From: a virus
DNA length: 40,216 nt
Direction: 5' to 3' (one strand)
Virus record (IMG/VR): IMGVR_UViG_3300025840_000078
Coordinates: 1 to 40,216 of that record
The notes below the pieces were generated by a model. The model searched no databases. It saw nothing but the letters and a program-made list of their open reading frames with translations, and was not told the origin of the DNA. A program made the position numbers and the translations under genes. Every line of letters starts with the position of its first letter. The first letter of the stretch is position 1. This document shows positions 3,030 to 38,754 of the stretch, in pieces.

Positions 3030-4538
3030 TTAACTCCGATATTCATCCATAAGGAAATAATTCAAAGGAAGTGGTCCCTTTGATGGATCGTAATTTGTAT
3101 TAGGGGGTCTTTTAATATACCAGCTGTTTAGCCATTTAGTAGGATCTGAATATGACTTGGCTGGGGTATAATATTCATTACCCTCATCATTTAATACGTA
3201 GAAGTGTCCACCTCCAATTGTCTGATCATTAATAATTACTACTCCAGGTGCTGCATCTAGAATATCTTTTACTAAATTAGTTAAAGCCCTATTCTGAGCA
3301 GGAGATGATGATTGGTCTGCAGGCGCTGCACCGATGCATATACAAATAGAAAGAGGATAATGTTTTTTCATCAATTCGCTTTGGCCCAACACGAATTCTG
3401 TTTCTTTTTCTATCGGTCTTCCTCTTTCGACAAGGCCTTGGCTAGATACAAAGAAATGGAAAGGCGTGCCGAGGGGAAAAACTCGGGCATATTCCCTATG
3501 AATATCCTTATGGGTTTCAAATCTAGGAGGCATACTGAAGAATATAATCTGTGTAATCTCTCTTTCTGCATTCGATAGCTCTGCATAAACTTCTCTCCCA
3601 ACTACTGGGGCAAAGTTTCTGCGATCATTCAAATCAGTATCTGCCTCTCTCCACTGTGAGGTAGTTAAGTCGATATAGTTTACGTCTAGGTCAACGTTTA
3701 CCTCATCATTCTTTTTCTTAATTTGTTTGGTGTAGGTGTTGTCCACAGACTTAACTATATTGATAGCCTGATTTAATGTTAGATCTGATTTATTTTTTAG
3801 GATAACCGCTGCATCTCTTATCTTACCCGATTGAATAAGTTTTACGATCTCAGTGGTTTCCTTTTTATCCAAGACTATCTTTACACCATTTTGAATAGCA
3901 ATAGAGTTTATAATGTTCCGGGTTGGCGCTAGAAACTCTTCAATAGTATTTTCAATAAAGGAATTAAATCCATTGAACACTGATCCAATTATATCATTAG
4001 CTACAGTTTGAAGGTTATTTACTAGACCTTTCAGATTATTAAAAGTATTCTCTGCAGACCCTAACACTTGGCCTAAAACATTGTTCAGGTTCTTAGTATC
4101 CAATTGTATCTTAAACTCTTCAGCAATTTTATCTAGATTCATATCTTTATTGATATTTGCCTCAATGGTTTTAGCTGTCTCATCGCTGAATTTCTCTAAG
4201 GCGCTTGCTACGGTATCTGAAAAGGGTGCTAGAACTACTACGTCTAATCCACCATCCTGGGTTAATCTTGAATCACCTGTTATAGATGTTAAGTCAGTTC
4301 GGTCATCGCCAACTTCTTTAACCATATCCTTAAAACTGGTCTCTAATTCTGCTACGGCTATTCCTACCTGATACTCTAATCCGTCATTCTGTGTAGTAGA
4401 TTTTACTATTGCGTTCTTGGATTCCTTCGGAAAGGTCAAGGATAACTTTCCCTCGGCCACTGCAGCATCAAGGGTTTTTTTAGTTTCGGGGCTTAAGTTG
4501 CCTAGTTCACTTTCAAAATATTCATCCAAATTTGACAT
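3030..4538 (-). CDS. Baseplate hub-region protein with degenerate amidase (PGRP-type) domain
   Basis: A 502-residue protein. Residues 1-275 are mainly helical with repeated short motifs (ENTFNNLKGLVNNLQ, NGFNSFIENTIEEF). Residues about 326-450 follow the Amidase_2/PGRP pattern: ITQIIFF at the first strand, DIHREYARVFPLGTPFHFFV, then SQGLVERGRPIE, then YPLSICICIGAAP and PAQNRALTNLVKDIL. In active amidases the first strand ends in a zinc-binding His pair and a later His precedes the catalytic region. Here the first site is FFSMPP and the later site reads IINDQTIGG, so zinc ligands appear lost. It may bind peptidoglycan or act only structurally. It lies between the OB-fold/lysozyme gene (TAATG coupling) and the spike gene. 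The domain call is by eye. Confidence 0.6.
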   Translation of the reverse strand: MSNLDEYFESELGNLSPETKKTLDAAVAEGKLSLTFPKESKNAIVKSTTQNDGLEYQVGIAVAELETSFKDMVKEVGDDRTDLTSITGDSRLTQDGGLDVVVLAPFSDTVASALEKFSDETAKTIEANINKDMNLDKIAEEFKIQLDTKNLNNVLGQVLGSAENTFNNLKGLVNNLQTVANDIIGSVFNGFNSFIENTIEEFLAPTRNIINSIAIQNGVKIVLDKKETTEIVKLIQSGKIRDAAVILKNKSDLTLNQAINIVKSVDNTYTKQIKKKNDEVNVDLDVNYIDLTTSQWREADTDLNDRRNFAPVVGREVYAELSNAEREITQIIFFSMPPRFETHKDIHREYARVFPLGTPFHFFVSSQGLVERGRPIEKETEFVLGQSELMKKHYPLSICICIGAAPADQSSSPAQNRALTNLVKDILDAAPGVVIINDQTIGGGHFYVLNDEGNEYYTPAKSYSDPTKWLNSWYIKRPPNTNYDPSKGPLPLNYFLMDEYRS

Positions 4539-9063: not shown

Positions 9064-9071
9064 TATTTATA
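9064..9071 (-). promoter_or_regulatory. T4-type late promoter before gp48
   Basis: The minus strand reads TATAAATA exactly. The predicted start is near 9055 and the gp48 ATG is at 9029. It overlaps the start region of the divergent gp4 gene, so two late transcription units probably leave from this 42-base gap in opposite directions. Confidence 0.75.
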
Positions 9072-9571
9072 TGGTAATTATGGCATACTCTGGAAGATAT
9101 AAGGTAAAGAACCGAAGCAAGTATAAAGGGAATCCTGACAATGTAGTCTTTAGATCATTATGGGAACGTAATGCTTTTAAATGGTGCGATGATAATCCAA
9201 ATATAAAGAGTTGGGTATCCGAAGAGGTTGTGATTCCATACTTCTATGATGTGGATAAGAAATATCACCGATACTTCATGGACTTAAAGATTACTTATAA
9301 CGACGGCAAAACCGTACTCGTAGAGATTAAGCCAGCCAAGGAAACAACCCCACCGGAATATAAAGGTAGAAAGACCAAGCGTTATATTACGGAAGGTATG
9401 ACCTATGTCAAAAACCAGAACAAGTGGAAAGCTGCACAGGAGTACGCACTGGATCGTGGCTGGGAGTTTCAGATCTGGACAGAAAATCATTTAAGTGCAT
9501 TAGGCATTCTACCGAACCCTAAAAAGAAACTGAAACCACTTGCTCCAATAAAAGTTAAAAAACGTACATAA
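9071..9571 (+). CDS. 4: Head completion protein gp4-like
   Basis: A 166-residue protein matching T4 gp4 (also called gp50/65), required to finish DNA-filled heads before tail joining. Family features are SRYK/YKGNP near the start, then VVFRSLWERNAFKWCDDN, and a nuclease-type strand pair HRYFMDLKITYNDGKTVLVEIKP with the D...E-x-K pattern of PD-(D/E)XK folds. Whether it cuts DNA is unknown; the acidic and lysine residues of that core are present. ATG 9071 and ATG 9080 are both possible; neither has a clear ribosome-binding site, and the family's usual N-terminus fits 9080. First gene of the plus-strand operon. Confidence 0.88.
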   Translation: MVIMAYSGRYKVKNRSKYKGNPDNVVFRSLWERNAFKWCDDNPNIKSWVSEEVVIPYFYDVDKKYHRYFMDLKITYNDGKTVLVEIKPAKETTPPEYKGRKTKRYITEGMTYVKNQNKWKAAQEYALDRGWEFQIWTENHLSALGILPNPKKKLKPLAPIKVKKRT

Positions 9572-9579
9572 ATAGTACC

Positions 9580-10164
9580 ATGAGCAACTTATTTAACAAA
9601 CTAGAACTACAGGCGTTTAGGGCTGGTATTACACCCAGGACCAAAGAATCAAGAGATTGGTTTAGACGGAAGGCAATGGCACTCCGTAATGTTAGTCGTA
9701 GTGCTTTGATGAAGGAAGAACCAGTGACACTATCAGATCGATCCGTCGTTGGATCGATGTACATGTTCTTCTATGATCCAAAGCATAAGGACACACTACC
9801 ATTCTATGATTCGTTTCCGTTGGTAATTATGATAGATAAAGCTGAAGGTGGATTCTTAGGATTGAATCTGCATTATCTCCCACCAGTTCTTAGAGCTAAG
9901 TTCCTTGATGCTTTGCTGGATATAACCAGTAATGATAAGTACGACGAGACTACAAAGTTTGCTTTGTCCTATTCATTATTGAAAAGATCAGCGAAGTACA
10001 AATACTTTAAACCTTGTGTAAAGCATTACCTAACTAGTCATGTAAGAAGTAGGTTCGCGAAGGTGCACGCGCCCGAGTGGGAGATTGCTACATTCCTACC
10101 TACAGCTGATTGGCAAAAGGCTAGTAAGTCAACGGTTTATTCTAACTCCAGAAGGATGATTTAA
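9580..10164 (+). CDS. Conserved virion-associated protein, function unassigned
   Basis: A 194-residue basic protein with a conserved central block (MYMFFYDPKHKDTLPFYDSF, then PLVIMIDKAEGGFLGLNLHY). Proteins of this type are recurrent in cyanophage-like T4 phages beside structural genes, usually labelled structural or hypothetical. It follows gp4 by eight bases, and its TAA overlaps the next ATG by one base (TAATG), so it is cotranslated with a tail-tube-fold protein. The context supports a role in head-tail completion or tail assembly. No enzymatic motif, signal peptide or membrane segment is visible. Confidence 0.75.
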   Translation: MSNLFNKLELQAFRAGITPRTKESRDWFRRKAMALRNVSRSALMKEEPVTLSDRSVVGSMYMFFYDPKHKDTLPFYDSFPLVIMIDKAEGGFLGLNLHYLPPVLRAKFLDALLDITSNDKYDETTKFALSYSLLKRSAKYKYFKPCVKHYLTSHVRSRFAKVHAPEWEIATFLPTADWQKASKSTVYSNSRRMI

Positions 10165-10898
10165 TGGCAAGCATTGATCAGTTTAAGTCTTTAGTATCTG
10201 CCAAGGATGGCATGGCAAGGGCCAATTTATTCCTGATTGAATTACCTGGGGGATTCCCTGGTGCCTCCGTTCAAGAACTAAATCTGTTATGTAAAGACGT
10301 ACAACTTCCTGGTCGTCAGATTATGACTAACGAACGCCGCATTGGTATGAAAATGGAAAGAATGGCATACGGTTATGCCATCACAGATATATCATTAACC
10401 TTTCATGTAATGAATGACTACGGTGTGAAGGAGTACTTCGAAGCCTGGCAGAACCTTGCTATTGATCAGAATAGATTCGAGGCAGGATATCAGAAGGCTA
10501 GAGACGGAAGTGGATATGCTAAGACGGTAAAAATTAGGCAACTTAAGAAGGGGTTTTCTTTACCTCTTTATAAGAAAGATTTCAATTTCGGATCTAGATT
10601 ACCTTCAGAAATAAAGAATAGATTGCCCAGGATTGGTCCTATTGATTTAGCTCAAGGTCAGTTAGATTTGAGTTATATAACAAACGATGACGTTATCTAT
10701 ACCTGTGAATTACAAGACGCTTTCCCAACCACACTTAATCCTATTCAGCTGAATAACGAATTAGATGGATTGGTTGAACTAAACGTACAGCTATCCTATA
10801 CAAACTGGACTTCGAGTAAGGCAGTCCAACCATCACAACTACAAAACTTTATATCCCGCCAGATTGGCACAGCAATCGGCAGGGTTTTCAATACTTAA
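10164..10898 (+). CDS. 54: Tail-tube-fold protein, probably baseplate tail-tube initiator gp54-like
   Basis: A 244-residue protein with the tube-protein pattern: MARANLFLIELP at the first strand, LLCKDVQLPGRQIMTNE, then YAITDISLTFHVMNDYGVKE and YFEAWQNLAI, and a late ELNVQLSYTNW strand. This arrangement is shared by gp19 (tube), gp48 and gp54. The major tube gp19 is normally shorter and lies near the sheath gene gp18, which is not here, and the neighbours are baseplate genes. gp54 is therefore the better guess, although T4 gp54 is longer (about 320 residues). The operon continues with the gp26-like gene 19 bases later. Confidence 0.65.
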   Translation: MASIDQFKSLVSAKDGMARANLFLIELPGGFPGASVQELNLLCKDVQLPGRQIMTNERRIGMKMERMAYGYAITDISLTFHVMNDYGVKEYFEAWQNLAIDQNRFEAGYQKARDGSGYAKTVKIRQLKKGFSLPLYKKDFNFGSRLPSEIKNRLPRIGPIDLAQGQLDLSYITNDDVIYTCELQDAFPTTLNPIQLNNELDGLVELNVQLSYTNWTSSKAVQPSQLQNFISRQIGTAIGRVFNT

Positions 10899-10917: not shown

Positions 10918-11631
10918 ATGGCACTACCCCAGATTAATACTTTCCCTTGGTATGATATTACTATCCCATCAACAAACCAAACAGTAAGATATAGACCATA
11001 CAATGTAGGAGAACAAAAAACACTTCTTGTAACTTTTGAGGCAGGCGAAGCTAGTAACATTGCTAAAGCACTACTAGACATTGTTATTAATTGTGTTGAA
11101 GAGGATCTAGATAAAAATGCTCTTACCACATTTGATGTCGAGTATTTGTTTTTACAGATTAGATCCAAATCAGTAGGTGAAACAACATCAGTAGGATTAA
11201 GATGCTCTGAATGTGAACATCAAAACAGTGTGGAAGTAACCATTGATCAGATCAAGATTAACCGGGATAAATTTCCTGATAAGATGATACCAATAAATGA
11301 TGATTATACGTTAGAACTAAAATTCCCGACGTACATTGATGTATTAGAAAATAAAGAAGGCCTATCCAAGGAAACTATTAGCGAATTATTATATGAAATG
11401 GTAATACAAAGTTTGGATAAGCTACATACACCTGATGAGTTAATTAGATTTAAGGATGAACCATTACAAGAGATTCTAAAATTCGTGGATAATCTGACTA
11501 CCGAGCAATATGAAAAATTATTAGAATTTGTGAACAATTTGCCCCGGTTAAGACAAGATGTAAAGTATGAGTGCGAAGAATGTAATCACAAGAATAATTA
11601 TACGTTGGAAGGACTATACGATTTTTTTTAA
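10918..11631 (+). CDS. 26: gp26-like baseplate hub assembly protein / tail chaperone (0-frame product)
   Basis: A 237-residue protein of the T4_baseplate (gp26-like) type. The N-terminus (FPWYDITIPS, TVRYRPYNVGEQKTLL) resembles the family. Two CxxC pairs are seen (LRCSECEHQN near 95 and YECEECNHKN near 222), which could bind one zinc. The frame ends GAT TTT TTT TAA within eight consecutive Ts. The -1 frame continues for 64 more residues to 11822, so two products, short and frameshift-extended, are likely. Position directly before the long probable tape measure gene mirrors lambda G/GT and the equivalent genes of many phages, where the pair chaperones the tape measure. The zinc and chaperone roles are inferred. 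Confidence 0.8.
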   Translation: MALPQINTFPWYDITIPSTNQTVRYRPYNVGEQKTLLVTFEAGEASNIAKALLDIVINCVEEDLDKNALTTFDVEYLFLQIRSKSVGETTSVGLRCSECEHQNSVEVTIDQIKINRDKFPDKMIPINDDYTLELKFPTYIDVLENKEGLSKETISELLYEMVIQSLDKLHTPDELIRFKDEPLQEILKFVDNLTTEQYEKLLEFVNNLPRLRQDVKYECEECNHKNNYTLEGLYDFF

Positions 11632-11742
11632 TAGCTCTTTCCCATGATACTTTGGTTAATTTTTACCAAGTTAACTTTCAGTTGTTACAGAATTATAACT
11701 ATTCGTTATTTGATCTAGAGAATATGCTGCCATGGGAAAGAG
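11622..11742 (+). promoter_or_regulatory. Programmed -1 ribosomal frameshift signal
   Basis: Slippery heptamer T TTT TTT at 11622-11628 (0-frame codons GAT TTT TTT TAA), then a 6-base spacer TAATAG. Next comes CTCTTTCCCATG at 11635-11646, perfectly complementary to CATGGGAAAGAG at 11731-11742 (12 bp). A second small hairpin sits inside the loop (TTGGT 11652-11656 with ACCAA 11665-11669). Heptamer, 5-9 base spacer and stable stem are the textbook -1 frameshift layout. The downstream arm lies in -1-frame coding sequence, so it serves both as code and structure. An alternative is a homopolymer error: a ninth T would fuse the frames without frameshifting. Confidence 0.8.
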
Positions 11743-11822
11743 AGATTTACGTACAAATGCTTCTCGATCAGCTGAAGCAGCAAAGGGAAGAACAACAGAA
11801 AAGATCTTTTATTAACAGATAA
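11628..11822 (+). CDS. Frameshift-encoded C-terminal extension of the gp26-like protein (T-type region)
   Basis: Read in the -1 frame from TTA at 11628 to TAA at 11820, this gives 64 residues: LIALSHDTLVNFYQVNFQLL, then NYNYSLFDLENMLPWEREIY, then VQMLLDQLKQQREEQQ. It looks like genuine protein, and LENMLPWEREIY recalls C-terminal segments of gp26/gp51-type hub assembly proteins in marine T4-like phages. No in-frame start codon with a ribosome-binding site exists before the single internal ATG at Met of ENML, so independent translation is unlikely. A fused product would be about 301 residues. Without this extension, 11640-11822 would be an unexplained gap inside a compact operon. Confidence 0.75.
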   Translation, partial: LIALSHDTLVNFYQVNFQLLQNYNYSLFDLENMLPWEREIYVQMLLDQLKQQREEQQKRSFINR

Positions 11823-11832
11823 GGATTAAACA

Positions 11833-13779
11833 ATGTCATCGTTGGAAGTAATTAATAAAACGTTACATGGTATCAGAGAGGATACTGATGAGCTGAATAG
11901 AAACTTCTTGAAGTTTTTCTTGGAGCAACAACGTGGCAAGTTAGATGCAGAAGAAGATCGTCGAGAAAGAGCCAAGATGATGGCGGCTCTTGGTGCTGCT
12001 GCAGCAGGTGCACGTGCAGGCGGCAGTGGCGGACAGGGCCAATCCGATGGGTTAGGACTTAATCCTCTTAAACTTATAACAGACCTGATTAAAAAATACC
12101 CCTGGCTTGCCGCTGCATTAGGCATTCCCGTAATAAAGGCCGGCGTATCTGTAGCAAGGGGCACATATCGCGTTGCCCGTACCACAGCCAAAGTTGCAAC
12201 AGCACCGGCTAGATTAGGAAATTTCCTTGGGGAAAAAACTGTCGAGCGAGCGAGAGTAATGAAAGAAAAAGCCGCTGCTAAAGCTGCTGAAAGAGCCGCT
12301 GCTAAGGCCGCTGCTGATGAATTAGAAAGATTGAAAAAACAAGCTTTTATGAATATGAATGAACCGGATTCGACCGCTGCAGGTGATAAAGAAAGAGCAA
12401 GACGTATAAGAAGAGAGCGTCTAAGGTTACAGATGATAAATGCCTCTCAGGGTTTTGGTGATGTTGAAGCCATGGCTGATGTTGAAGCTGAAAAGGCAAG
12501 AGCAAGAGCGAGAAGTTTACAAGCACAGAGAGGCTTTGTACCAGGAAGCACAGCCCAAAGTGCTGCTAGATATTCCACACTTGAATTAGAGGAAATAAAA
12601 AGATTACAAGGACAGAGAGGCTTTGTACCAGGAAGCACAGCACAGACTGCTAATAAAGCTTTAAAAATGCCGTATCGTCCTTTTATGCCTACTGGTGGAT
12701 TTGGAAATACTCAAGCTGGTAGTATTCCAGGTGCTAAAGATTTCCTGCCCACACCCAGAGGTACAAGCTATACACCCTCAAGCTCGATGGGAGGATCAAC
12801 CGCAGGAGATAGCTTACCTAAGGTTTCAATTGTGGGAAATAAAGTAAGTTATTTAGATCCTGTGTCTAATAAGTTTTTGCCACATAAAATTGCTATTGAA
12901 ACTTTAGAAAGAAATGGTTTTAGTGCTTTAGGCGAAGATCTAAGAGCTGATTTAGAAGAAGTTAGAAGGGCCGAACAGGAAAGAATTAAGCAAGCGAAAG
13001 CTGTAGCAGAAAGAGCAAAAACCCCTAATACTCCAGCTAAAACCTTAGATCAGATAGTAACTGAAGCCAGAGCTGAAAGAGCTAGAGTAGCAGCAAATAT
13101 TGCAAAGAAGGCTGGTGGGACAATTAAGGCGACCGGATTTGGTGCCTTAGCTGCAGCGGGTAAAGCCTCACCGATCCTATGGGGCTTCGATGCAGGACTT
13201 AAGGCAAAAGAGCTACAAGATGAGGGGGTAACAATTGGTGCATCTTCTCCCGTTGCTTTAGCTACATCAGCAACATTAGGCCTTGGTGATTTTGCAAACT
13301 GGATCGCCAATTTCGGATTGCGAGCGGTGGGATCCGATTACCAACTCAGAACTGATATGGCGTCCAGCACTAATAAAGGAATATTTAACTTCCTTAGAAA
13401 TAACATAGAATACGTACCGCCAGAGTTCAGAAAGTTTCTTTTTAAGAAAGAAGAGCTCGATAAGCTCAATAAACCATATGTCCCGAATAAAGTTGTTCCC
13501 ATGGACTCAAGCTTGATGATCCCGCAAGTCTCCGCTGAAGAAGAAGCCAATGCCAAGGCACTTGCAGCTGCTGAGGCCCAATTAGTAGCTGCCCAATTAT
13601 TGGAAAACGCAGCCATTGCAATGGGTAAGAATAGTGATGGTAGAATTGTAACAAAAGGGGGCAGCGCACAAGCGTTGCCGATGGGATCTACAGTTGATCT
13701 TAGGGCTAATAAATTAAATATGATGGTAGGCGGTGGTGGTATGTTTATGATACCAGATATGATTATGCCAACCATTTAA
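11833..13779 (+). CDS. Probable tail tape measure protein (gp29-like by position)
   Basis: A 648-residue protein, the longest of the operon, with AAGGA before the ATG. Residues 1-60 are helical and charged. About 80-110 is a hydrophobic stretch (YPWLAAALGIPVIKAGVSVA). About 135-170 is Ala/Lys/Glu-rich coiled coil (EKAAAKAAERAAAKAAADEL). There are two exact 30-base repeats encoding QRGFVPGSTAQ, then a second hydrophobic patch near 430 and 470 (TLGLGDFANWIANFGL). Tape measures follow the chaperone gene in tailed phages. At about 1.5 angstrom per residue the protein would span near 97 nm, close to the T4 tail, for which T4 gp29 has 590 residues. I see no direct gp29 motif, so the call is by context. 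Confidence 0.6.
   Translation: MSSLEVINKTLHGIREDTDELNRNFLKFFLEQQRGKLDAEEDRRERAKMMAALGAAAAGARAGGSGGQGQSDGLGLNPLKLITDLIKKYPWLAAALGIPVIKAGVSVARGTYRVARTTAKVATAPARLGNFLGEKTVERARVMKEKAAAKAAERAAAKAAADELERLKKQAFMNMNEPDSTAAGDKERARRIRRERLRLQMINASQGFGDVEAMADVEAEKARARARSLQAQRGFVPGSTAQSAARYSTLELEEIKRLQGQRGFVPGSTAQTANKALKMPYRPFMPTGGFGNTQAGSIPGAKDFLPTPRGTSYTPSSSMGGSTAGDSLPKVSIVGNKVSYLDPVSNKFLPHKIAIETLERNGFSALGEDLRADLEEVRRAEQERIKQAKAVAERAKTPNTPAKTLDQIVTEARAERARVAANIAKKAGGTIKATGFGALAAAGKASPILWGFDAGLKAKELQDEGVTIGASSPVALATSATLGLGDFANWIANFGLRAVGSDYQLRTDMASSTNKGIFNFLRNNIEYVPPEFRKFLFKKEELDKLNKPYVPNKVVPMDSSLMIPQVSAEEEANAKALAAAEAQLVAAQLLENAAIAMGKNSDGRIVTKGGSAQALPMGSTVDLRANKLNMMVGGGGMFMIPDMIMPTI
12525..12641 (+). repeat. 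Direct repeat inside the probable tape measure gene
   Basis: Two identical 30-base copies at 12525-12554 and 12612-12641, spaced by exactly 87 bases (29 codons), encode QRGFVPGSTAQ in phase. The codon-level identity suggests a recent in-frame duplication or ongoing homogenisation, a plausible route to change tape-measure length by one unit. Confidence 0.9.
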
Positions 13780-14225: not shown

Positions 14226-15140
14226 TTAGTCCTCCGCAGCTAATTTAGCAAAGTAGCTCATTGTATCATCTTCGTCTACGGCCTCTGCAGTTTGTGGTGC
14301 TGCAGCTGCTGGTTGTGCCGCTGGCTTTTGACGAGCATCGAAGTCAGGAATCTCATCGTCCAATGCAATTGTTTGTTTTACAGTACGTGGTGCTTGTTCA
14401 CCCAGTACCTGATACATTTTAGTCTTTAGCTCATCGTAAGACTTATAGTTCTTTGGATCGATGAACTCGCTAATATCATGTATTTGACTATAGATGCCTT
14501 CAAGCTTTTCATCATTACCATCTAATAGTGGTGTTGGTGATTTAAACTCTGATTTGTCGTAGTTACGATAACCTTCGACATTACGAATCTTCATAACGAA
14601 GTCTGCACCGTCCCAGAAGTCAAATGGGTTGACTGGTTTCTCGTCTGGGAACTGGGGCTGCATCAAGTCCATGATCTTATCGAAGATCTTCTTACCGAAC
14701 TTAAAAATCATAACCTTACCTTCATTCTGTGGGTTAGAAGGATCGGATACGACATACACATTGGTTACATAGTGCAACCGCCGTTTTTGCTTCCGTGCAG
14801 TTTCTTTATCATCGTCATTACCAGAGTTCCACAGTCGAGAGTTTAGCTCACCTACTGGATCGTTCTGACCAATTGATGTGAGGGATTTCTCGATGTACCA
14901 TTGACCTGTTGGGCCTTTGAACCCGTGGTCCCAGTACCGTACCCATGGAATGTCCTGGCCTTCTGCTGCAGGCAAGAAGCGGATAATAGCATATCCATTA
15001 CCAGCCTTATCAACTGTAGGCTTCCACTCACGTTCATCTTTGTATGATTGGTTTTGTGTATCCCCACCGCCGACTGACTGTGCAGCTTGGACGAGTTTAT
15101 TGAAATCTGTGCGATTGCGTTTTAGTGTATCTAGTGACAT
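14226..15140 (-). CDS. 32: Single-stranded DNA-binding protein gp32
   Basis: A 304-residue protein; T4 gp32 is 301. The N-terminus (MSLDTLKRNRTDFNKLV) is the cooperativity domain. The core has GYAIIRFLPAAEGQDIPWVR, KRRLHYVTNVYVVSDP and GKVMIFKFGKKIFDKI, matching the gp32 OB-fold. The Ala/Pro linker and acidic tail (AVDEDDTMSYFAKLAAED) are the protein-interaction tail. It coats ssDNA during replication, recombination and repair. Odd: the protein has no cysteine at all. The T4 zinc site (His plus CPVC region) is replaced by GQNDPVGELNS, so the zinc subdomain is lost. It has its own promoter, with ACAAGGAAATACA before the ATG. Confidence 0.95.
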   Translation of the reverse strand: MSLDTLKRNRTDFNKLVQAAQSVGGGDTQNQSYKDEREWKPTVDKAGNGYAIIRFLPAAEGQDIPWVRYWDHGFKGPTGQWYIEKSLTSIGQNDPVGELNSRLWNSGNDDDKETARKQKRRLHYVTNVYVVSDPSNPQNEGKVMIFKFGKKIFDKIMDLMQPQFPDEKPVNPFDFWDGADFVMKIRNVEGYRNYDKSEFKSPTPLLDGNDEKLEGIYSQIHDISEFIDPKNYKSYDELKTKMYQVLGEQAPRTVKQTIALDDEIPDFDARQKPAAQPAAAAPQTAEAVDEDDTMSYFAKLAAED

Positions 15141-24673: not shown

Positions 24674-25306
24674 TTAAATTTTCATAAGATCATAAATGTG
24701 TTTCTTACCCTTCCCACCGGTCCAGTGCATTATACTAATATCTTTCGGAGCGGTTTGATCGATCAGATCCAGTCGTAGGGTGTTATATTTTCTAGGCAGA
24801 TCCTCAATATATATCTCTTTGCTTAGAGGATCGCCTAATATTTCATGTAGAACTTCTTGATCCCCTACCCTAGGGTTAGTTGCAACAGCCGCCTGCCATT
24901 TTTTTAAAATTGGTGGAGATCCTTGAAATGCTACGACTCCAGAATTGTGCCATTTACTCTCTCTTCTACTTGTCCACGGTTTATCAACCGCCATTGTCAA
25001 CTTATTAGGTTTTATATAGTCAAATATCTCATCGATGGGCCCTTTAACGTGGCAATCAGTATCAATCCAGCAAACTTTTTCGGAGACCTTTGATGCAGCA
25101 ATCATTGCATCAGGTTTCTTAAACCATCCAACACTTTTACTTTCTAATGGAGTAGGGGAGAAAGCCCTTATAGCTTCTTCAGACATACCAAAATCATATA
25201 TTAAAATATTGGTTTTAGTATGAGCAGAGAAATTATCCAAAAACCATCCTAGCATCCAATCTGTGTTACTATCACATCCTGTTATAAACGTTCTAGAGTA
25301 TTTCAT
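24674..25306 (-). CDS. GT-A glycosyltransferase (GT8-like)
   Basis: Start at ATG 25306, two codons after a GTG at 25312; 210 residues. Features are KYSRTFITGCDSNTDWMLGW, then KVCWIDTDCHVKGP with a DxD-type Asp-Thr-Asp metal site, then SKWHNSGVVAF, GDQEVLHEIL and IMHWTGGKGKK. This is the order expected for GT8-type transferases (DxD, NxG, HxxGxxK). It transfers a sugar from a nucleotide donor; donor and acceptor are unknown. It overlaps the upstream GT25 gene by 14 bases. Confidence 0.75.
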   Translation of the reverse strand: MKYSRTFITGCDSNTDWMLGWFLDNFSAHTKTNILIYDFGMSEEAIRAFSPTPLESKSVGWFKKPDAMIAASKVSEKVCWIDTDCHVKGPIDEIFDYIKPNKLTMAVDKPWTSRRESKWHNSGVVAFQGSPPILKKWQAAVATNPRVGDQEVLHEILGDPLSKEIYIEDLPRKYNTLRLDLIDQTAPKDISIMHWTGGKGKKHIYDLMKI

Positions 25307-25940
25307 AATCACTATCCCACCCGTGCTTTGCTATACATCCTGCTACCTTCTGAATTGTTGTAAACTTATCTTTTACTTCTACCTTCCAAGGATAATGCTC
25401 TTGGAGATAGGGGAAAGATTTAGTGTTCATAAACACATCTGTTGGTCCGGCCTGTAGCTTGGCCTGTGTTACTAAATCCTTAGCCCCCCACTGATTAATA
25501 CGGTACGCGTGAGCGCCCCCGAAATATCTTTTATGGGTTAGTGGCCCAGTACCTAAATGGGAAGGTATTCTATAATTCCCATATGAAGGCTTACCTAAAT
25601 TCACGATACGATGAAATGGTATTGTAGAATTCAATTGATCAACTACGATTGCATCATGTTCGAATATAGTGATTGGCATCCGCATTTCCATACACTTCTT
25701 CCACAATGAGTAGTGGGAAAGAAATGCTGCCATACAATTATCCATTCGAGAATAACGATCAGTAAATCCAAGAGGGGATAACTCCTCCTCTTTCATTTTT
25801 GCAACAATATCAGTATTCTGTGGGGTAATTGCATCAAACATTTCGATCATTAGACCATGACGGGAACCGGATCTAATACATCTCTCAGCATACTCTACTG
25901 ATTGTGGTAGTTCTTTTATAGTTATGACATAATGTTTCAT
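25293..25940 (-). CDS. Glycosyltransferase family 25-like
   Basis: A 215-residue protein: MKHYVITIKELPQSVEYAER, FDAITPQNTD, NCMAAFLSHYSLWKKCMEM, then PITIFEHDAIVV with Glu-His-Asp. These are the characteristic steps of GT25 (LPS beta-galactosyl- and collagen-galactosyl-type) enzymes: start strand, FDAI-P, SH-x-x-LW, E(H)DA. First of three GT25 copies in this operon. ATGA overlap with the upstream GT25 gene. Sugar specificity is unknown. Confidence 0.8.
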   Translation of the reverse strand: MKHYVITIKELPQSVEYAERCIRSGSRHGLMIEMFDAITPQNTDIVAKMKEEELSPLGFTDRYSRMDNCMAAFLSHYSLWKKCMEMRMPITIFEHDAIVVDQLNSTIPFHRIVNLGKPSYGNYRIPSHLGTGPLTHKRYFGGAHAYRINQWGAKDLVTQAKLQAGPTDVFMNTKSFPYLQEHYPWKVEVKDKFTTIQKVAGCIAKHGWDSDYEIL

Positions 25941-26635
25941 AATGTTGTTGTACTCGCTGTTCTTTGAACTTTAGTGTAGTAGGTTTTAGTAACACCTAAT
26001 AAGGGAAATAATTGATAGCACATCAAAGCATCATTAGGCCATAACCCATATTCGTTTACTAATTCTAGCATTTCCTCTGCAGCCCACGGTTTAATTATAT
26101 AAGCTGAATTTCCTGCTAATCCTTGAGGTACACTTATACTATCTATACGTGGTACATTGGTTACTTCTACTTTCGACGCCTGAACCATCCTATGAAACAC
26201 CAGCGCCTTCCGTGTAGCGTTGAAAGGTTCATTGATGCCGATAATCCCATACCTAGATTCTAATAACTTTTTCCAAGGAAGAGTTTTAGTAAAAATAGCG
26301 TCATGCTCTAAAACTAATATTGGTTCACGTTCATCAAAACATTTCTCCCACAGTGTTAAATGACTAAGAGCACAAGCTATTCTTGCATCTCTGTTTCGGG
26401 TAGGGTAAGCGCGTTTGACTAGGCCAGTAGCAAAATCCGTGACCTCTCCCTCCCATGGATAATTCCATTTAGTCATATATTTGTGGGTCATTATAGCTTG
26501 AGCATCTTGAGGGGTTATTGCATCAAACCTTTCGATTGAAAATTCGTTCTTAACTTTCCAGCTGCTTTCAATACAATGGCGTGAAGCGGTTTCGGATATA
26601 TCGTTACCCTCAATTGTTATAACATAAGCCTTCAT
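25937..26635 (-). CDS. Glycosyltransferase family 25-like
   Basis: A 232-residue protein with the same scheme: MKAYVITIEGNDISETASRH, RFDAITPQDAQ, ARIACALSHLTLWEKCFDE, PILVLEHDAIF, and the C-terminal VPQGLAGNSAYIIKPWAAEE. It is clearly paralogous to its neighbours but diverged, so probably a different linkage. Coupled to both neighbours by 4-base ATGA overlaps. Confidence 0.8.
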   Translation of the reverse strand: MKAYVITIEGNDISETASRHCIESSWKVKNEFSIERFDAITPQDAQAIMTHKYMTKWNYPWEGEVTDFATGLVKRAYPTRNRDARIACALSHLTLWEKCFDEREPILVLEHDAIFTKTLPWKKLLESRYGIIGINEPFNATRKALVFHRMVQASKVEVTNVPRIDSISVPQGLAGNSAYIIKPWAAEEMLELVNEYGLWPNDALMCYQLFPLLGVTKTYYTKVQRTASTTTL

Positions 26636-26991
26636 TTCTGACTATCACCTGGCATAACCCTATAGTTATCCTCTACCGAATCTGGTGTAGAAACTTCTAT
26701 AATAGTTCCTTTCATAATACAATATATTTTATGAGGGAACAAAGGTTTATTACGCCAGGTGTCTCCTTGATTTAATTCTTGTTTATGTTTAGTAGCGTCG
26801 TTCGTATCAATCCATTCTACCATAAATTTGCCGGATAGTACATACCATGTTTCATCTTTTTCACTGTGAAAGTGCATAGAGAATTGTGAGCCCTCGTTAA
26901 ACTTTAAAAGCTTACCGCAATACTTTTCATTCGTAGCAAAGATGAGTTCATGACCCCAACCCTTTTCTACAAAGCCCTTTAATCTAGTCAT
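26632..26991 (-). CDS. Cupin-domain sugar enzyme (phosphomannose-isomerase type II-like)
   Basis: A 119-residue single cupin: LKGFVEKGWGHELIFA, GKLLKFNEGSQFSMHFHSEK, DETWYVLSGKF, then NQGDTWRNKPLFPHKIYCI. Metal ligands His-x-His, Glu and the later His are all present. It resembles the C-terminal cupin of GMP/PMI enzymes or sugar-phosphate isomerases and epimerases. In this operon it could isomerise the sugar phosphate fed to the kinase, or act as a nucleotide-sugar epimerase. Overlaps the kinase by eight bases and the next GT25 gene by four. Confidence 0.75.
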   Translation of the reverse strand: MTRLKGFVEKGWGHELIFATNEKYCGKLLKFNEGSQFSMHFHSEKDETWYVLSGKFMVEWIDTNDATKHKQELNQGDTWRNKPLFPHKIYCIMKGTIIEVSTPDSVEDNYRVMPGDSQK

Positions 26992-27748
26992 TCTCTATCT
27001 CTTCTATGGTTGGTGCATATACGCCATGATTCTGTACCGTAATTGATGCTGCTTTCATAGCAAACGGGATTGCTTTCATCCAATCTTTTGTATCCAGATG
27101 TTTCTTAACCATGGCTGCAAGGAACGTATCTCCTGCCCCGCACACGTCGTGAACATCTATTTTTGGCGGGTGAAATTCTTTACCGTTGAAAACTACTTTC
27201 TGCCCGCCGTATGTAACAATCATGTTGTCAGCATAGGAGGTCGCTTTATTATATTCATCCTCGTTAATCTTTATGTAGGCTCCCTGGAGTCTATATAGCT
27301 CGGGCTTTTTCGTATCAATATAGATTGGAATTTTATTCATCCGAGCAATGGTAATTAGATATTCTATATCTACATACTGCAAATACCCCTTGTCATAGTC
27401 ACTAACGACAATGGCATCGGCATCCAATTTATGAGGGAAATTTAAATCTTCAAAAGGCTCTCCGTTGTCTCTATCCACTCGCATCAGCTGATAGTTTGTT
27501 TTGCAATCTATGTATCGGGTTTTTACACTGATCTTAGAACTGGTCCACAGATCCACTTCACAACCTAGATTCTCTAGGTTCTGTTTTACATTCAAGGCCA
27601 TCCCGCCTTTTCGAGATTTATATTGGGATTTAAATATAGGTACTGGTGCTTCAGGGCTTAGTCTATCCACATTACCGTAAATATAAAGGTCTGTGCAACT
27701 GTCTCCTATCAATGTAATTTTCCAAGGTATTTGTTGTCGACTCATCAT
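26984..27748 (-). CDS. HldE-like heptose kinase (PfkB family), compact form
   Basis: A 254-residue PfkB kinase: KITLIGDSCTDLYIYGNVDR, LSPEAPVPIFK (the HldE-type SPEAPVPV motif), KGGMALNVKQNLENLG, VVSDYDKGYL, and catalytic DVCGAGDTFLAA, with Asp as base. HldE kinase domains phosphorylate D-glycero-D-manno-heptose 7-phosphate at C1. It is shorter than the usual roughly 320 residues; a region after the GG motif is missing. Its start overlaps the nucleotidyltransferase gene by 77 bases, the longest overlap in this operon; no later Met could replace it without losing the first strand. Confidence 0.85.
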   Translation of the reverse strand: MMSRQQIPWKITLIGDSCTDLYIYGNVDRLSPEAPVPIFKSQYKSRKGGMALNVKQNLENLGCEVDLWTSSKISVKTRYIDCKTNYQLMRVDRDNGEPFEDLNFPHKLDADAIVVSDYDKGYLQYVDIEYLITIARMNKIPIYIDTKKPELYRLQGAYIKINEDEYNKATSYADNMIVTYGGQKVVFNGKEFHPPKIDVHDVCGAGDTFLAAMVKKHLDTKDWMKAIPFAMKAASITVQNHGVYAPTIEEIEND

Positions 27749-28100
27749 TCACTCTATCAAAGAACTCTATACTCTTACAGAACTCTTCACCTACTATATT
27801 ACCATTCTTCCAATCCGAACCAATCACCCTGACGTCGGGATTATACTCTTTTATAATTGTAACTAATTCTTCGTCATTTGTAAATACCCTAACCTCATCA
27901 ACAGCTTTTAAATTTTCCAATATACATTTACGAGTCTGGAGATTGTTGACTGGGCGATCCGGACCTTTGGCTTCACTTATTCTGGAATCCGTATCAATGG
28001 CTACCATAAGATAATCACCCAGGGACTTAGCATAATTGAGTAATGCTATGTGCCCTGGGTGTAATATATCATATGCACCATTTGCCATTATGTATCTCAT
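27672..28100 (-). CDS. HldE-like ADP-heptose nucleotidyltransferase
   Basis: A 142-residue protein: MANGAYDILHPGHIALLNYA contains the HxGH nucleotidyltransferase motif, followed by GDYLMVAIDTDSRISEAKGP, RPVNNLQTR, VDEVRVF, NPDVRVIGSDWKNGNIVGEE and ESTTNTLENY. This tracks the C-terminal domain of HldE (RfaE2) step by step; that domain adenylates heptose 1-phosphate to ADP-heptose. Here the order of kinase and transferase is reversed from fused HldE. Cytosolic. Other transferases of the HxGH family (CTP-glycerol type) are less likely because of the GSDWKNG and STT motifs. Confidence 0.85.
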   Translation of the reverse strand: MRYIMANGAYDILHPGHIALLNYAKSLGDYLMVAIDTDSRISEAKGPDRPVNNLQTRKCILENLKAVDEVRVFTNDEELVTIIKEYNPDVRVIGSDWKNGNIVGEEFCKSIEFFDRVNDESTTNTLENYIDRRQLHRPLYLR

Positions 28101-28672
28101 TTTCTTTTGATCAGCATAGCCCCTACGCCCTCAGTAAGCTCTTCTACTAATTCAAACTGACTACCAACAATATCAGATTTCATCCACTCTTTTACTCCAG
28201 GGCCAATAGGAGAAGGTTTACCATGAATCATTGCTGTATCATGAAATACAATCCAATCTCTAACGGATGAGGCATGAAGTTCTAATTCTCTTTGAACCCA
28301 TGGCCAAGTATGAACAGAGTCGATCAGCATTGTATCACAAGGACCCACGCATTGTTTATCATGGGAGCTACAGTTGTAAAGACGGAGTTTGCCGTTATGC
28401 TCTTTTAGATATTCGTCAAAGTATTTTTTATGGGTGTTGAATGGCTTAAAGTCAACGTCTACTAGATGTAGCTCTCGGGCACCGTGTAGAGCTGCATACG
28501 CTGCACTCCATCCATAATATGTACCTAGCTCTTTGTGTACATATCCTTCTTTCATGTTTTCGCGAATAAGATCGTAATGGCATCGATATTTGTAATCCTT
28601 AGTACCGATCGCCTTAAATCTTTCGGTAAGGTCAAACAGATCTTTTGCATCTGTTACTTGTAAGTTCCTCAT
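28097..28672 (-). CDS. SAM-dependent methyltransferase-like protein
   Basis: A 191-residue protein with a Rossmann start (YVHKELGTYYGWSAAYAALH, then ARELHLVDVDFKPFNTH), TMLIDSVHTWPWVQRELEL, and SVRDWIVFHDTAMIHG. This is the Methyltransf_24/cephalosporin-hydroxylase pattern (G-x-x-x-G, D at strand 2, IDxxH, FHD). It could methylate a sugar in the glycan made here. ATGA overlap with the nucleotidyltransferase downstream and two bases after the upstream GT25. Confidence 0.7.
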   Translation of the reverse strand: MRNLQVTDAKDLFDLTERFKAIGTKDYKYRCHYDLIRENMKEGYVHKELGTYYGWSAAYAALHGARELHLVDVDFKPFNTHKKYFDEYLKEHNGKLRLYNCSSHDKQCVGPCDTMLIDSVHTWPWVQRELELHASSVRDWIVFHDTAMIHGKPSPIGPGVKEWMKSDIVGSQFELVEELTEGVGAMLIKRK

Positions 28673-28674
28673 AA

Positions 28675-29367
28675 TTACTCTCCGTGGCTTGTTCTTTGGT
28701 TTCCGAAAACATAATGGGATAGTTCAAAATAATCAGGAAACACGTATTGCATATGTATAGATTTAGTATTAATAATATAGTCAGCTTTATCCCAACCATA
28801 TTCTTTTACATTGTTAATGATTCGCTTAGCACCCTTAGGAGATATAGCATAAGCTGCACTGCCGGGGATCATGCCAGCACCCCTCCAAAGATTATCTGAG
28901 CGATATACTAGAAAGGGATTGACATATGTATGTATACCTTCCGTAAGGGTTGGCTTACTTATCGTATCGAATAGGCTTTGATGTAAACCACTTTGCATAT
29001 TTAAAACCAGCATCTCATCGAACTGTGTGTCACCCCAAGGCTTTTCCGCAAACACATCGTGCTCTAGGATTACAATCGGTTCATCTAGTTCTATACACTT
29101 ATTCCATAGGGTGTAGTGGTTTAAGAAATTAGAGTACTTACACTTATATGTGTAGTTGCTGCCATTCTTTCCGATCTGTCTATCGTACATATGGCTGGGA
29201 TTCATTACAGTTAAATTGTATTTCTTATCGAACTCTTTTACGTTCTTAGGTGTAATCCCTTCGAATAGTTCTGCATCGTAGCCGTGCTCAATACAAGAAT
29301 CATATGCCCAGCCTGCAGTCTTTTCAGAATTAGCATTACCTTTGATATGAATAATGTAAGCCTTCAT
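28675..29367 (-). CDS. Glycosyltransferase family 25-like
   Basis: A 230-residue protein: MKAYIIHIKGNANSEKTAGW, LFEGITPKNVKEFDKKY, KYSNFLNHYTLWNKCIEL, PIVILEHDVFAEKPWG, MIPGSAAYAISPKGAKRIIN. Third GT25-type copy of the operon; the SH of the family is NH here (FLNHYTLW). Coupled to a methyltransferase by ATGA. Confidence 0.8.
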   Translation of the reverse strand: MKAYIIHIKGNANSEKTAGWAYDSCIEHGYDAELFEGITPKNVKEFDKKYNLTVMNPSHMYDRQIGKNGSNYTYKCKYSNFLNHYTLWNKCIELDEPIVILEHDVFAEKPWGDTQFDEMLVLNMQSGLHQSLFDTISKPTLTEGIHTYVNPFLVYRSDNLWRGAGMIPGSAAYAISPKGAKRIINNVKEYGWDKADYIINTKSIHMQYVFPDYFELSHYVFGNQRTSHGE

Positions 29368-29855
29368 TTACAAGCTACTCCATAGAATGCGTTGTAAAGA
29401 TCGGCACCAGAAACTAATATATTATGATATCCTCGGTCCTCGAAATAATCATTAATGAATTCAGGTGTTAATATGTTTACATGCTTTCGATTACTCCATG
29501 GCCGCCAATATGTCTGTGAGTAGTGTGGCAGATATAAGAACATAACACCGCCCGGCTTAAGATGCTCGCCCCAGTAATTGAGTGCACCAACCCAGTCTGG
29601 AATGTGCTCAAGGCAATGCGATGAGAATATATAATTGTATTCCTCATCAGGTAGATTAAAAGCGTGCCACTCATCATCGATCTCTAGATCTATCATCTTA
29701 GCGCCAGGATAAGCCCACTCGGCTCTGTTACATCCAATGTCTAAACCTTTGCCGCTCAGTACTTCTTTTGCAAATGGCATGGCAAAACGGGCAGCATTAC
29801 CATTTGTCTGGAACTTAGGATATATCTTACCAGCGTGTTCTACTACTTCCATCAT
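29364..29855 (-). CDS. Class I SAM-dependent methyltransferase (type 11-like)
   Basis: A 163-residue protein: SGKGLDIGCNRAEWAYPGAK (motif I), MIDLEIDDEW, EYNYIFSSHCLEHIPDWVGA (post-motif with CLEH), LNYWGEHLKPGGVMFLYLPH. Typical Methyltransf_11/23. The short N-terminal part lacks a separate substrate domain. It probably methylates a glycan sugar or nucleotide sugar. Four-base overlaps on both sides. Confidence 0.8.
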   Translation of the reverse strand: MMEVVEHAGKIYPKFQTNGNAARFAMPFAKEVLSGKGLDIGCNRAEWAYPGAKMIDLEIDDEWHAFNLPDEEYNYIFSSHCLEHIPDWVGALNYWGEHLKPGGVMFLYLPHYSQTYWRPWSNRKHVNILTPEFINDYFEDRGYHNILVSGADLYNAFYGVACK

Positions 29856-30544
29856 ATCTTTAAAGCCTTTTTCTGATAGTCAGCGTATGGTGGGACATTC
29901 ACTTCATTCTCTTTTGCATATTGATAGTACTGTTCCTCAGTAGCCACTCTTACACCTTTGCCGGTCTGCTGATATACTGTTACACCTGGCTGTGTCTGGA
30001 GGTATCTCATATAGTGATACGCATCAGCAAAGTAATAGCTATTTTTTGATATAACTGTAGTTGGTATTTTTAGTGCTGCAGCTAACCAGGCAGTGCCCGA
30101 ATCTATAGTTATGTGCCGTTCAGATTTTTTCATTAACTTTAAAAGGCTGTCAATATCCTTGCAATCCAATATATCTTTGGGATTGGTTAGCTTTGATAAA
30201 TTTTCATTGACCTCTTCTGCAGTTAGTGCTCTGTCCGCAGCATTATCACTATTTGTTTTAAATTGAAAAGTAGAATGTTCTGCTTTGGATCGATTCGTGA
30301 TACTAATCAAAGGTGCTTTATCAATCCGCATTTGGTGTAATAGATCAGGCATTGTTTCAGTGATACGCCCATCGATCTGTACAAACTCTGGTACTTCTAC
30401 CTTTGCTATTTCTAGGATTTTTAATAGCGTTTTAAAGTCGCCGCGGTTATAATATACGGTCTTCACAGAGTAATGCTTAAAGTAACTGGCAAGGATAATG
30501 CTATCCCCCAGTGCATCAAATATTCTATACAAGCTTACATTCAT
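29852..30544 (-). CDS. GT9-like (heptosyltransferase-type) glycosyltransferase
   Basis: A 230-residue protein: SLYRIFDALGDSIILASYFK at the start resembles the GALGD motif of GT9 enzymes, and ERHITIDSGTAWLAAALKIP, then TTVISKNSYYF matches the DSGxxHLAAALxxP-T signature of heptosyltransferases. Most of the acceptor domain is short, so it is compact for GT9 (usually over 320). With ADP-heptose enzymes in the same operon, heptose transfer is an attractive but unproven role. Confidence 0.7.
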   Translation of the reverse strand: MNVSLYRIFDALGDSIILASYFKHYSVKTVYYNRGDFKTLLKILEIAKVEVPEFVQIDGRITETMPDLLHQMRIDKAPLISITNRSKAEHSTFQFKTNSDNAADRALTAEEVNENLSKLTNPKDILDCKDIDSLLKLMKKSERHITIDSGTAWLAAALKIPTTVISKNSYYFADAYHYMRYLQTQPGVTVYQQTGKGVRVATEEQYYQYAKENEVNVPPYADYQKKALKI

Positions 30545-31254
30545 GATGCAAATTCTTTCATTCTAGTTTTGGTCTTTGCGAGGAAGTGATTTATCTTACC
30601 ATCTGGTATTCCAAATGTCCACATGTAGTTCATACGATTCCATTGGTTGGATAGCTCCACTACGTGCATGTTATGTTTATTAATCATAAGGTTCAGATAA
30701 GGTTGTTCATTCATTCGAAGTGTATTTCTATATCTTTCGATCTCAGGCATTCCACCAAATAGCTCTCGGGCTTTCAGTCTGCCTTCTTTAGTCCATAGAA
30801 CCACACCACCATTTAAATATCTTTTTTCTGATGGGAATGTGGTGGACCTTTTAAATTGAATATTTCCATACGCTTCTAATTTACTTATAGCACTATTAAT
30901 GAAGCCCTGTGGGCTTCCTGGTCCACCATCTTGAATCATACCCATCTCTTTGATATTATGGTCGAATATATTATCAGTAGTATCTACAAGCGTATCTACA
31001 TCCAACATCAGTACCTTATCAAACTGATCGAAGTATGGATCAAGGAATACCCGACAAGCCTCTAGATTTTGGTTAGGGGCATTAATAGTTACCTCAGTAG
31101 ATAATTCATATTCAACACCGATTGCGGAAGCATACTTTTTAGCGGATTTAATACCTAGATTAGCCCAACGGGGAAATCCGTTGGCTTCTTCTTTGATAAT
31201 ATCTTTATTGTCGCCTGTAAAAGATAGATAGTATTGATAGATTAGATTAGCCAT
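30541..31254 (-). CDS. Glycosyltransferase with DxD motif (GT8-like)
   Basis: A 237-residue protein: LIYQYYLSFTGDNKDIIKEE, NLEACRVFLDPYFDQFDKVL, then VLMLDVDTLVDTTDNIFD with a DVD metal site, RYLNGGVVLWTKEGRLKARE, LFGGMPEIERY and GKINHFLAKTKTRM. Strong paralogy to the next gene. Start overlaps the upstream gene by eight bases; ATGA overlap downstream. Confidence 0.75.
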   Translation of the reverse strand: MANLIYQYYLSFTGDNKDIIKEEANGFPRWANLGIKSAKKYASAIGVEYELSTEVTINAPNQNLEACRVFLDPYFDQFDKVLMLDVDTLVDTTDNIFDHNIKEMGMIQDGGPGSPQGFINSAISKLEAYGNIQFKRSTTFPSEKRYLNGGVVLWTKEGRLKARELFGGMPEIERYRNTLRMNEQPYLNLMINKHNMHVVELSNQWNRMNYMWTFGIPDGKINHFLAKTKTRMKEFAS

Positions 31255-33061: not shown

Positions 33062-33757
33062 TTAATATCCTAACATTTCTTTCGTCATAATATAATCCCG
33101 GACGAAGTCAGATCTTACAATATCTTCCCACCCGAAATTAATTATTGTAAAGTTCTTTAGTTGCTCTACAATCTGTAAGAACTTAACAATTCCTTGTTTG
33201 TCGTCATCATATTTAAAATCACTTTGTTTATAATCACCACAAAATATAACTTTACTATTTCTACCAACTCGTGTTATTACTGAATCAAGTTCATGAAAAT
33301 TTAAATTCTGCATCTCATCAACTACTATAATGGAATTATCAAATGTAGCACCTCTGATAAATGAGGTTGACTCGAACCGGATTTGCCCTGCTGTAACCAT
33401 TTTTTGGTATGAGCTTTTATCCCCAAATAGCTCTGTACATATAGATTTATAAGGTGATGTGAACGCTTCTTCTTTCGCTTCTTTGTCGCCTGGTAAGAAT
33501 CCCATTTCTCTAGTAGGTACCATAGATCTAACTATAATAAGTCTATCCCATTCGGTATCTCTTTCTAGAACATCTTCAAGCGCTAAATAAAGCGCCATAA
33601 AAGTTTTACCAGTTCCAGCCGTGCCAGTTAAAACTAAGTTATCTCCTTCATCCCAAGCTTGATATGATTTTTCCTGATTTAAGGTTAATGGGTCAAATTG
33701 GAGAAGATCATCCAGCTTAACCGTCATACTATTATTCTGACTTTTAGTTCTTTTCAT
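33062..33757 (-). CDS. phoH: PhoH-like P-loop ATPase
   Basis: A 231-residue PhoH core: NLVLTGTAGTGKTFMALYLA (Walker A GTAGTGKT near 45), RLIIVRSMVPTREMGFLPGD (the PhoH RP-x-x-G-LPG motif), and NSIIVVDEMQNLNFHEL (Walker B), then SKVIFCGDYKQSDF. PhoH is frequent in marine phages and is an ATPase whose phage role is unsettled (RNA or phosphate-stress functions have been proposed). The start overlaps the stop of the upstream gene by one base. Confidence 0.93.
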   Translation of the reverse strand: MKRTKSQNNSMTVKLDDLLQFDPLTLNQEKSYQAWDEGDNLVLTGTAGTGKTFMALYLALEDVLERDTEWDRLIIVRSMVPTREMGFLPGDKEAKEEAFTSPYKSICTELFGDKSSYQKMVTAGQIRFESTSFIRGATFDNSIIVVDEMQNLNFHELDSVITRVGRNSKVIFCGDYKQSDFKYDDDKQGIVKFLQIVEQLKNFTIINFGWEDIVRSDFVRDYIMTKEMLGY

Positions 33758-34188: not shown

Positions 34189-34623
34189 TTAACGTAAAAT
34201 TAAATCGGGAAATGCCTCCTGTACTAGTTTTTTTGTGACACCTTTAATGGGAAGCTTCTTGTTGATCATACCCGCAAGGAGCTCTGCATCTCGAGGGTGC
34301 ACGGTCTCGAGAATGTCTAAAAACATTTTCTCTCTTTTAATTCTATTCATCTTTTCACCTGGTCCGCCTTTAATAAAATATGCCAATTTTTTATTATGCT
34401 GTGACCAGTTAGATGGATGAGAGCTTGGGTCCGCAGGCTCATACGGAACTGTACCTTTGGGTAAGATCCATTGGACCACATCATCGAAAGTACCGCGGAG
34501 GAGATCTTTCAATGCCCAGTTATTATTCTGTGCCTGTAGGAGTTTAATCTTATCAGCCTTTGTTTTGGCTTCTGATACTTTTTCTAATATTTCAAAAGTA
34601 TAATGTGTTGTTTTGTTGACCAT
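34189..34623 (-). CDS. Conserved phage protein (DUF6433-like)
   Basis: A 144-residue protein: FEILEKVSEAKTKADKIKLL, QNNNWALKDLLRGTFDDVVQ, WILPKGTVPYEPADP, then FLDILETVHPRDAELLAGMI and PIKGVTKKLVQEAFPDLI. This arrangement is well conserved beside RNase H in marine T4-like phages and, as I recall, listed as DUF6433. Function unknown; linkage to RNase H suggests replication. Coupled to RNase H by a one-base overlap. Confidence 0.75.
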   Translation of the reverse strand: MVNKTTHYTFEILEKVSEAKTKADKIKLLQAQNNNWALKDLLRGTFDDVVQWILPKGTVPYEPADPSSHPSNWSQHNKKLAYFIKGGPGEKMNRIKREKMFLDILETVHPRDAELLAGMINKKLPIKGVTKKLVQEAFPDLILR

Positions 34624-38698: not shown

Positions 38699-38754
38699 CG
38701 ATAAATCCTTTCTGGCCATAAACGACATATGGCAGTTGTTACTGACTTAAATAC

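Follow-up and report, generated by a model that had tools for sequence, protein, structure and literature searches.

We report that a gp26/gp51-type gene in a 40,216-base viral contig from a marine T4-type phage (the whole stretch of DNA analysed, hereafter the window) very probably gives rise to two tail assembly chaperones by means of a programmed -1 ribosomal frameshift. Comparison with related loci further makes it likely, if with less assurance, that in the marine T4-type gp26/gp51 genes the RNA structures stimulating the frameshift were swapped while the slippery site was kept, and that the T4 branch, with its gene duplication, gave up the frameshift. The locus comprises the following features:

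10164..10898, + strand: upstream neighbour, a tail-tube-related gene (phrog_45 tail tube, 2.3e-30)
10918..11631, + strand: gp26-like putative short chaperone, 0 frame, 237 aa, equivalent to TAC-N or G (PF12322 'T4 base plate protein', 1.6e-51; phrog_150 'baseplate hub', 4.8e-52)
11622..11628, + strand: slippery heptamer T_TTT_TTT (T6N in this position in 85/85 nr70 genes and in 83/83 of a second set)
11629..11631, + strand: 0-frame stop codon TAA, abutting the heptamer (stop 0-1 codons past the heptamer in 97/105 loci)
11628..11822, + strand: -1 frame extension, 64 aa plus stop, the C-terminal part of gp51, putative equivalent of TAC-NC or T (phrog_634, phrog_150, alignment with T4 gp51)
11635..11641 (to 11646 in the window), + strand: 5' arm of the core stem, conserved 7 bp, with wobble-wobble covariation with 11736-11742
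11736..11742 (window stem 11731-11742), + strand: 3' arm of the core stem, within the PWERE codons; 11738 pairs with 11639 and 11741 with 11636
11833..13779, + strand: next gene, 648 aa, in the tape-measure position, with no family match

The 3' end of the gp26-like ORF reads GAT TTT TTT TAA, i.e. a run of eight Ts followed by AA, and the heptamer has the X_XXY_YYZ pattern in the 0 frame at the end of this first ORF. The -1 frame is open for 64 residues from 11628 up to its stop at 11820-11822 and encodes a conserved protein; together with the 237 upstream residues the fused product would thus have 301 amino acids, with a predicted junction of DFF/LIALSH. A 6-nucleotide spacer (11629-11634) separates the heptamer from a stem whose arms, 11635-11646 (CTCTTTCCCATG) and 11731-11742 (CATGGGAAAGAG), are perfect reverse complements. 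RNA spanning 11629-11756 folds at -30.5 kcal/mol (z -3.58), with 0/200 shuffles equally low, and an inner hairpin is part of the fold. On re-reading the sequence, the ORF end, heptamer, spacer, stem and -1 frame were all found where the preliminary description had placed them.

The 0-frame product matches phrog_150 up to column 232 and the -1 product matches the final 47 columns of the same profile (235-281), indicating that they are two pieces of one family profile. The -1 product also matches phrog_634 ('baseplate hub assembly catalyst', i.e. gp51; 3.1e-21), and alignment with gp26/gp51 relatives, as the preliminary description had recommended, places the extension on the C-terminus of T4 gp51. 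The gene is thereby a member of the T4 gp26/gp51 family by PF12322, phrog_150 and phrog_634, and its short and long forms have a common N-terminal domain, as is typical of tail chaperones. We propose that most ribosomes would terminate at the TAA at 11629, releasing the 237-residue gp26 in the role of G or TAC-N. A minority would be paused by the core stem (11635-11641/11736-11742), which begins six bases further on, while both tRNA-Phe occupy TTT TTT (11623-11628); these ribosomes would slip back one base and read to 11822, yielding a 301-residue gp26-gp51 fusion in the role of GT or TAC-NC. The frames, the slippery site, the homology of the extension to gp51 and the covarying stem are apparent from sequence and comparison; from these we infer slippage in vivo and its rate, the stimulating role of the stem and an action of the chaperones on the tape measure. 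The arrangement is reminiscent of G/GT of phage lambda, in which, as Xu, Hendrix and Duda reportedly described in 2004, a -1 slip towards the end of the short form yields a long chaperone with a C-terminal extension. However, lambda has a different slippery sequence, and the window's family possesses a conserved downstream stem.

In nearly all of about 190 related loci, drawn from environmental contigs and isolated phages, the gp51 part lies at -1 behind a T6N heptamer, the exceptions being Ackermannviridae and three other phages. Isolates with this organization are cyanophages, pelagiphage HTVC008M, the Methylophilales phage Melnitz, Rhizobium/Sinorhizobium phages, Vibrio phage VH7D, Pseudomonas pf16, Desulfovibrio phage 7757 and the jumbo phage SP27. 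Among IMG/VR environmental loci chosen by the extension profile alone, the gp26 frame is open upstream with the extension at -1 in 80/80 and fused in 0/80. Likewise, in the second set the extension lies at -1 behind gp26 in 83/83, including three contigs filed under bacterial MAGs. These contigs carrying the module (L201-L203) are catalogued with MAGs of Formosa, Porticoccaceae and Flavobacteriales, a weak hint as to hosts. The heptamer tables (105 loci; 85 genes) used a T6 filter, whereas the isolate survey and the 80-locus set did not; in the second set loci without T6 were counted separately and numbered 0. Only three loci dropped out of the 105-locus table: L003, which ends at a contig edge, and L025 and L031, which have the heptamer along with a diverged PWERE motif. 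The last base of the heptamer in the 105 loci is T (56), C (40), A (7) or G (2), with T6A and T6G occurring where the second residue is Leu. Its presence in every one of the 85 genes of less than 70% identity compares with 46% expected from the residues and the codon use of each gene (log10 P -32 if the genes are independent, which they are not fully). Counting against the proposal, relatives commonly have T_TTT_TTC, at which slippage in E. coli is weaker. In the Ackermannviridae (SenALZ1, Ds16CZ) and in Vibrio phages K476 and D509 the gp51-like -1 frame is retained without T6; as the -1 frame of SenALZ1 lacks a usual start codon, an odd slip site is possible there. The loci from these phages (L022 3217-3405, L023 3169-3391, L029 ~3313-3480 and L030 3241-3396) end in NTT TTY/TTT xxx TAA rather than T6N. 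No extension was seen at the gp26 stop of RHph_TM39.

The spacing from the heptamer to PWERE is identical in 101/105 loci, allowing a gap-free alignment of those loci. In 90 sequences of less than 90% identity, corrected mutual information is highest for 11639:11738 and second highest for 11636:11741, out of 10,153 column pairs. Both belong to the stem, all four sites are third codon positions, and the pairs switch between C-G and T-A in repeated, independent compensatory changes at two wobble-wobble pairs. Double-change cells amount to 67 versus 27.9 in shuffled data, and slid registers score lower. Mean pairing probability of the 7-bp core is 0.71 versus 0.16 in synonymous recodings, its presence in the minimum-energy fold 69% versus 11%, and full pairing drops from 44/90 sequences to 19/90 under residue-preserving codon shuffles. 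On a gp26 tree built without the stem region each stem column changed 13 to 16 times, with joint pair changes of only 17 and 20; independent contrasts were concordant 4.9:0 and 6.0:0 on average, and crossed control columns were not concordant. The 12-bp stem and inner hairpin noted earlier are both present in the window, but the conserved core is limited to about 7 of the 12 bp (11635-11641/11736-11742): the distal 5 bp show no covariation in the alignment and no inner hairpin is conserved among the relatives. RNAalifold predicted no consensus structure for an 84-row alignment, which we count against the proposal, and the evidence for the stem is instead drawn from counts of named structures and mutual information. 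A search of Rfam yielded nothing real, its one match (E 0.16) being far below gathering. The loop enclosed by the core stem measures about 94 nt, which is long for a bacterial stimulator and also counts against the proposal; the position of the stem 6 nt downstream falls within the 5-9 nt expected for a structure at a programmed -1 site. Both the T6N heptamer and the covarying 7-bp core are thus conserved across relatives, as the preliminary description had suggested should be checked, and they argue for its proposal that a -1 frameshift joins gp26 to a gp51-type extension.

Cyanophage sequences present a different structure: the long stem is found in 3/61 and a local 10-bp hairpin of the GTATGGCTCA..TGAGTCATAC type, starting 6 nt past the heptamer, in 43/61. 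This hairpin has a pairing probability of 0.62, which recoding lowers to 0.07, and in that set no pair covaries more strongly than 31:45, which belongs to the hairpin. Over 151 sequences, the long stem is present in 71, the hairpin in 44, both in 0 and neither in 36; some of the last have other short hairpins, and these 36 too count against the proposal. Both structures, each placed 6 nt past the heptamer and never occurring together, may be read as frameshift stimulators that replaced one another behind a retained slippery site. We found no mention of the two conserved stems in the open-access literature, and the roughly 150 sequences with two alternative structures constitute a natural set for frameshift tests.

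We considered whether the extension might be a separately initiated gp51 gene, translated either from a start codon belonging to it or by ribosomes that reinitiate past the gp26 stop, as it is annotated in public records. An ATG occurs close to where the extension begins in 62/151 sequences, and stop-start overlaps occur in phiM9, RL2RES, K476 and D509. However, the first -1 ATG past the heptamer in the window (11724) lies within the conserved domain, in 80/151 sequences the -1 frame lacks any start codon as far as residue 8, and a start with an SD-like motif is seen in 3/151 only. In several public records the 'gp51' start is indeed placed at a Met within the conserved domain. Separate initiation would furthermore leave both the T6 heptamer and the stems at 6-nt spacing unexplained, the fused form is the one that T4 makes, and no relative was found in which a separately initiated extension is combined with the lack of a conserved slippery site or stem; we therefore hold it to be highly improbable. 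The covarying sites also bear on the reading that the frameshift is real and the stem a by-product of conserved protein sequence. Both arms do encode conserved residues (LSH and PWERE) and the distal half lacks covariation, but the loss of core pairing on synonymous recoding (0.71 to 0.16), the loss of full pairing on codon shuffling (44 to 19 of 90) and the restriction of the covariation to third codon positions render this very unlikely.

The T run itself invites two other explanations. RNA polymerase could slip on the eight Ts of the window and produce mixed mRNAs, some encoding the fusion, but the six Ts are broken by C, A or G in 49/105 loci and in 81/83 of the second set, and a covarying RNA stem 6 nt downstream would be unexpected; we consider such slippage extremely unlikely. 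As homopolymers are error-prone, one might also envisage an assembly error, or an inactive gene, in which the loss of a T has divided what was one continuous fused ORF. Yet eight Ts are also found in L002, which encodes the same protein, and in the independent contigs L004-L008, whose proteins are 68-74% identical, and the frame relation is the same in all loci of two sets. The T count is thereby upheld, and the nine-T single ORF against which the preliminary description had cautioned was not encountered in the contigs compared. We rejected a lost-T or nine-T error as refuted by the relatives, its probability being close to nil. Programmed -1 ribosomal frameshifting hence remains our preferred interpretation for the window.

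T4 and its kin, in contrast to the window with its one gene and probable -1 frameshift, encode separate, divergent genes. In T4 gp51 (249 aa) the extension follows a full PF12322 domain (3.9e-52), and the protein covers phrog_150 from 13 to 280, whereas T4 gp26 ends at 235; the two proteins align with each other (BLASTP 2e-06). The same divergent gp26/gp51 pair is present in RB49, PhT2, Aeromonas 25 and Thanatos, and in all five phages it is without the heptamer. In the tree a 100/100 branch separates all ten T4-type copies from the rest, with the gp51 copies as one group, and the window gp26, which has no T4-style duplicate, falls outside this branch. These relationships indicate that the T4 branch uses gene duplication in place of frameshifting. 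The same chaperone pair would arise through a frameshift in some members of the family and through gene duplication in others, so that regulation of the short-to-long ratio can be compared between them. T4 gp51 is required yet absent from the particle (PMC3004832). In an IMG/VR contig (L212, 2501-3246) a T4-type gp51 is interrupted, its reading frame changing past residue ~120.

Gp26 was modelled with AlphaFold2 (mean pLDDT 92.3), and among the top PDB matches of the model only 2OB9, the tail assembly chaperone of HK97, reached a high probability (0.90; E 0.6, with an rmsd of 2.8 across 62 columns); this is suggestive of a chaperone fold, though not proof of it. The model matches 3FGX, a named tail chaperone (PMC9603447), with a probability of 0.41, and a sequence search of solved structures found no relative. 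The protein (10918-11628) looks internally duplicated in the predicted model, each half having strands, helices and a CxxC-type hairpin (residues 96-103, CSECEHQN, and 219-226, CEECNHKN). The earlier suggestion that T4-type hub proteins follow the same strategy as G/GT agrees with the probable frameshift and the extension in the window and with the weak HK97 fold match, but does not extend to T4 itself, in which gp51 is a full-length paralogue. The gene is preceded by the tail-tube-related gene and followed by the 648-aa gene, which had been taken for the tape measure. This identification is not borne out for the window: the ORF matched no tape measure by PHROGs, Pfam, tblastn or profile comparison, nor, by profile, part of T4 gp29 or the tape-measure-like proteins of vibriophages. 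In Melnitz and VH7D the gene that follows does match tape-measure families (phrog_1535, 7e-08; phrog_58, 1.2e-08), and in the HTVC008M record a tape measure is annotated two genes on.

The frameshift is of a known kind and its principle is not new. The preliminary description knew of no established case for T4-type gp26/gp51, a statement now outdated: T4-like tail chaperone genes were identified by Vladimirov et al. 2022 (as cited in PMC10885494, PMC12846349 and PMC9603447), a work that the PRFect paper cites in connection with a short gene accompanied by a longer, fused copy (PMC10885494) and that is cited elsewhere for poly-T slippery signals in T4-like TAC-N genes (PMC12846349). We accordingly do not claim the frameshift as novel. 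As in those chaperones, to judge from the citing papers, short and long forms with a common N-terminal part are seen here; by homology these chaperones are the gp26/gp51 family (PF12322, phrog_150, phrog_634). A -1 frameshift at a poly-T stretch at the end of TAC-N, with a mis-annotated extension, is also described for Vandenendeviridae and Andersonviridae, but these are other phage families with a GTTTTT motif, and the relevant section of PMC12846349 does not mention a stem. Cyanophage and marine vibriophage gp51 lacking the first ~200 residues was noted by Sullivan et al. 2010 (PMC3037559), in whose Fig. S3 legend 'frameshift' is not mentioned. That 'short gp51' corresponds to the same reading frame, there presented as a reduced gene and here as a -1 extension of gp26, which would supply the missing ~200 residues. 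Many public records list gp51 as a separate, sometimes truncated gene, which the joined product should replace.

Elsewhere in the window, the - strand carries a glycosyltransferase and sugar-kinase cluster at 24674-31254 (Glyco_transf_25 twice, Glyco_transf_8, PfkB) and matches to B12-dependent ribonucleotide reductase (36470-38728), PhoH (33062-33757), T4-type RNase H (34623-35477) and gp32 (14226-15140). The head closure protein at 9071-9571 (phrog_218) matches the Pfam TnsA-like endonuclease N domain (1.8e-19).
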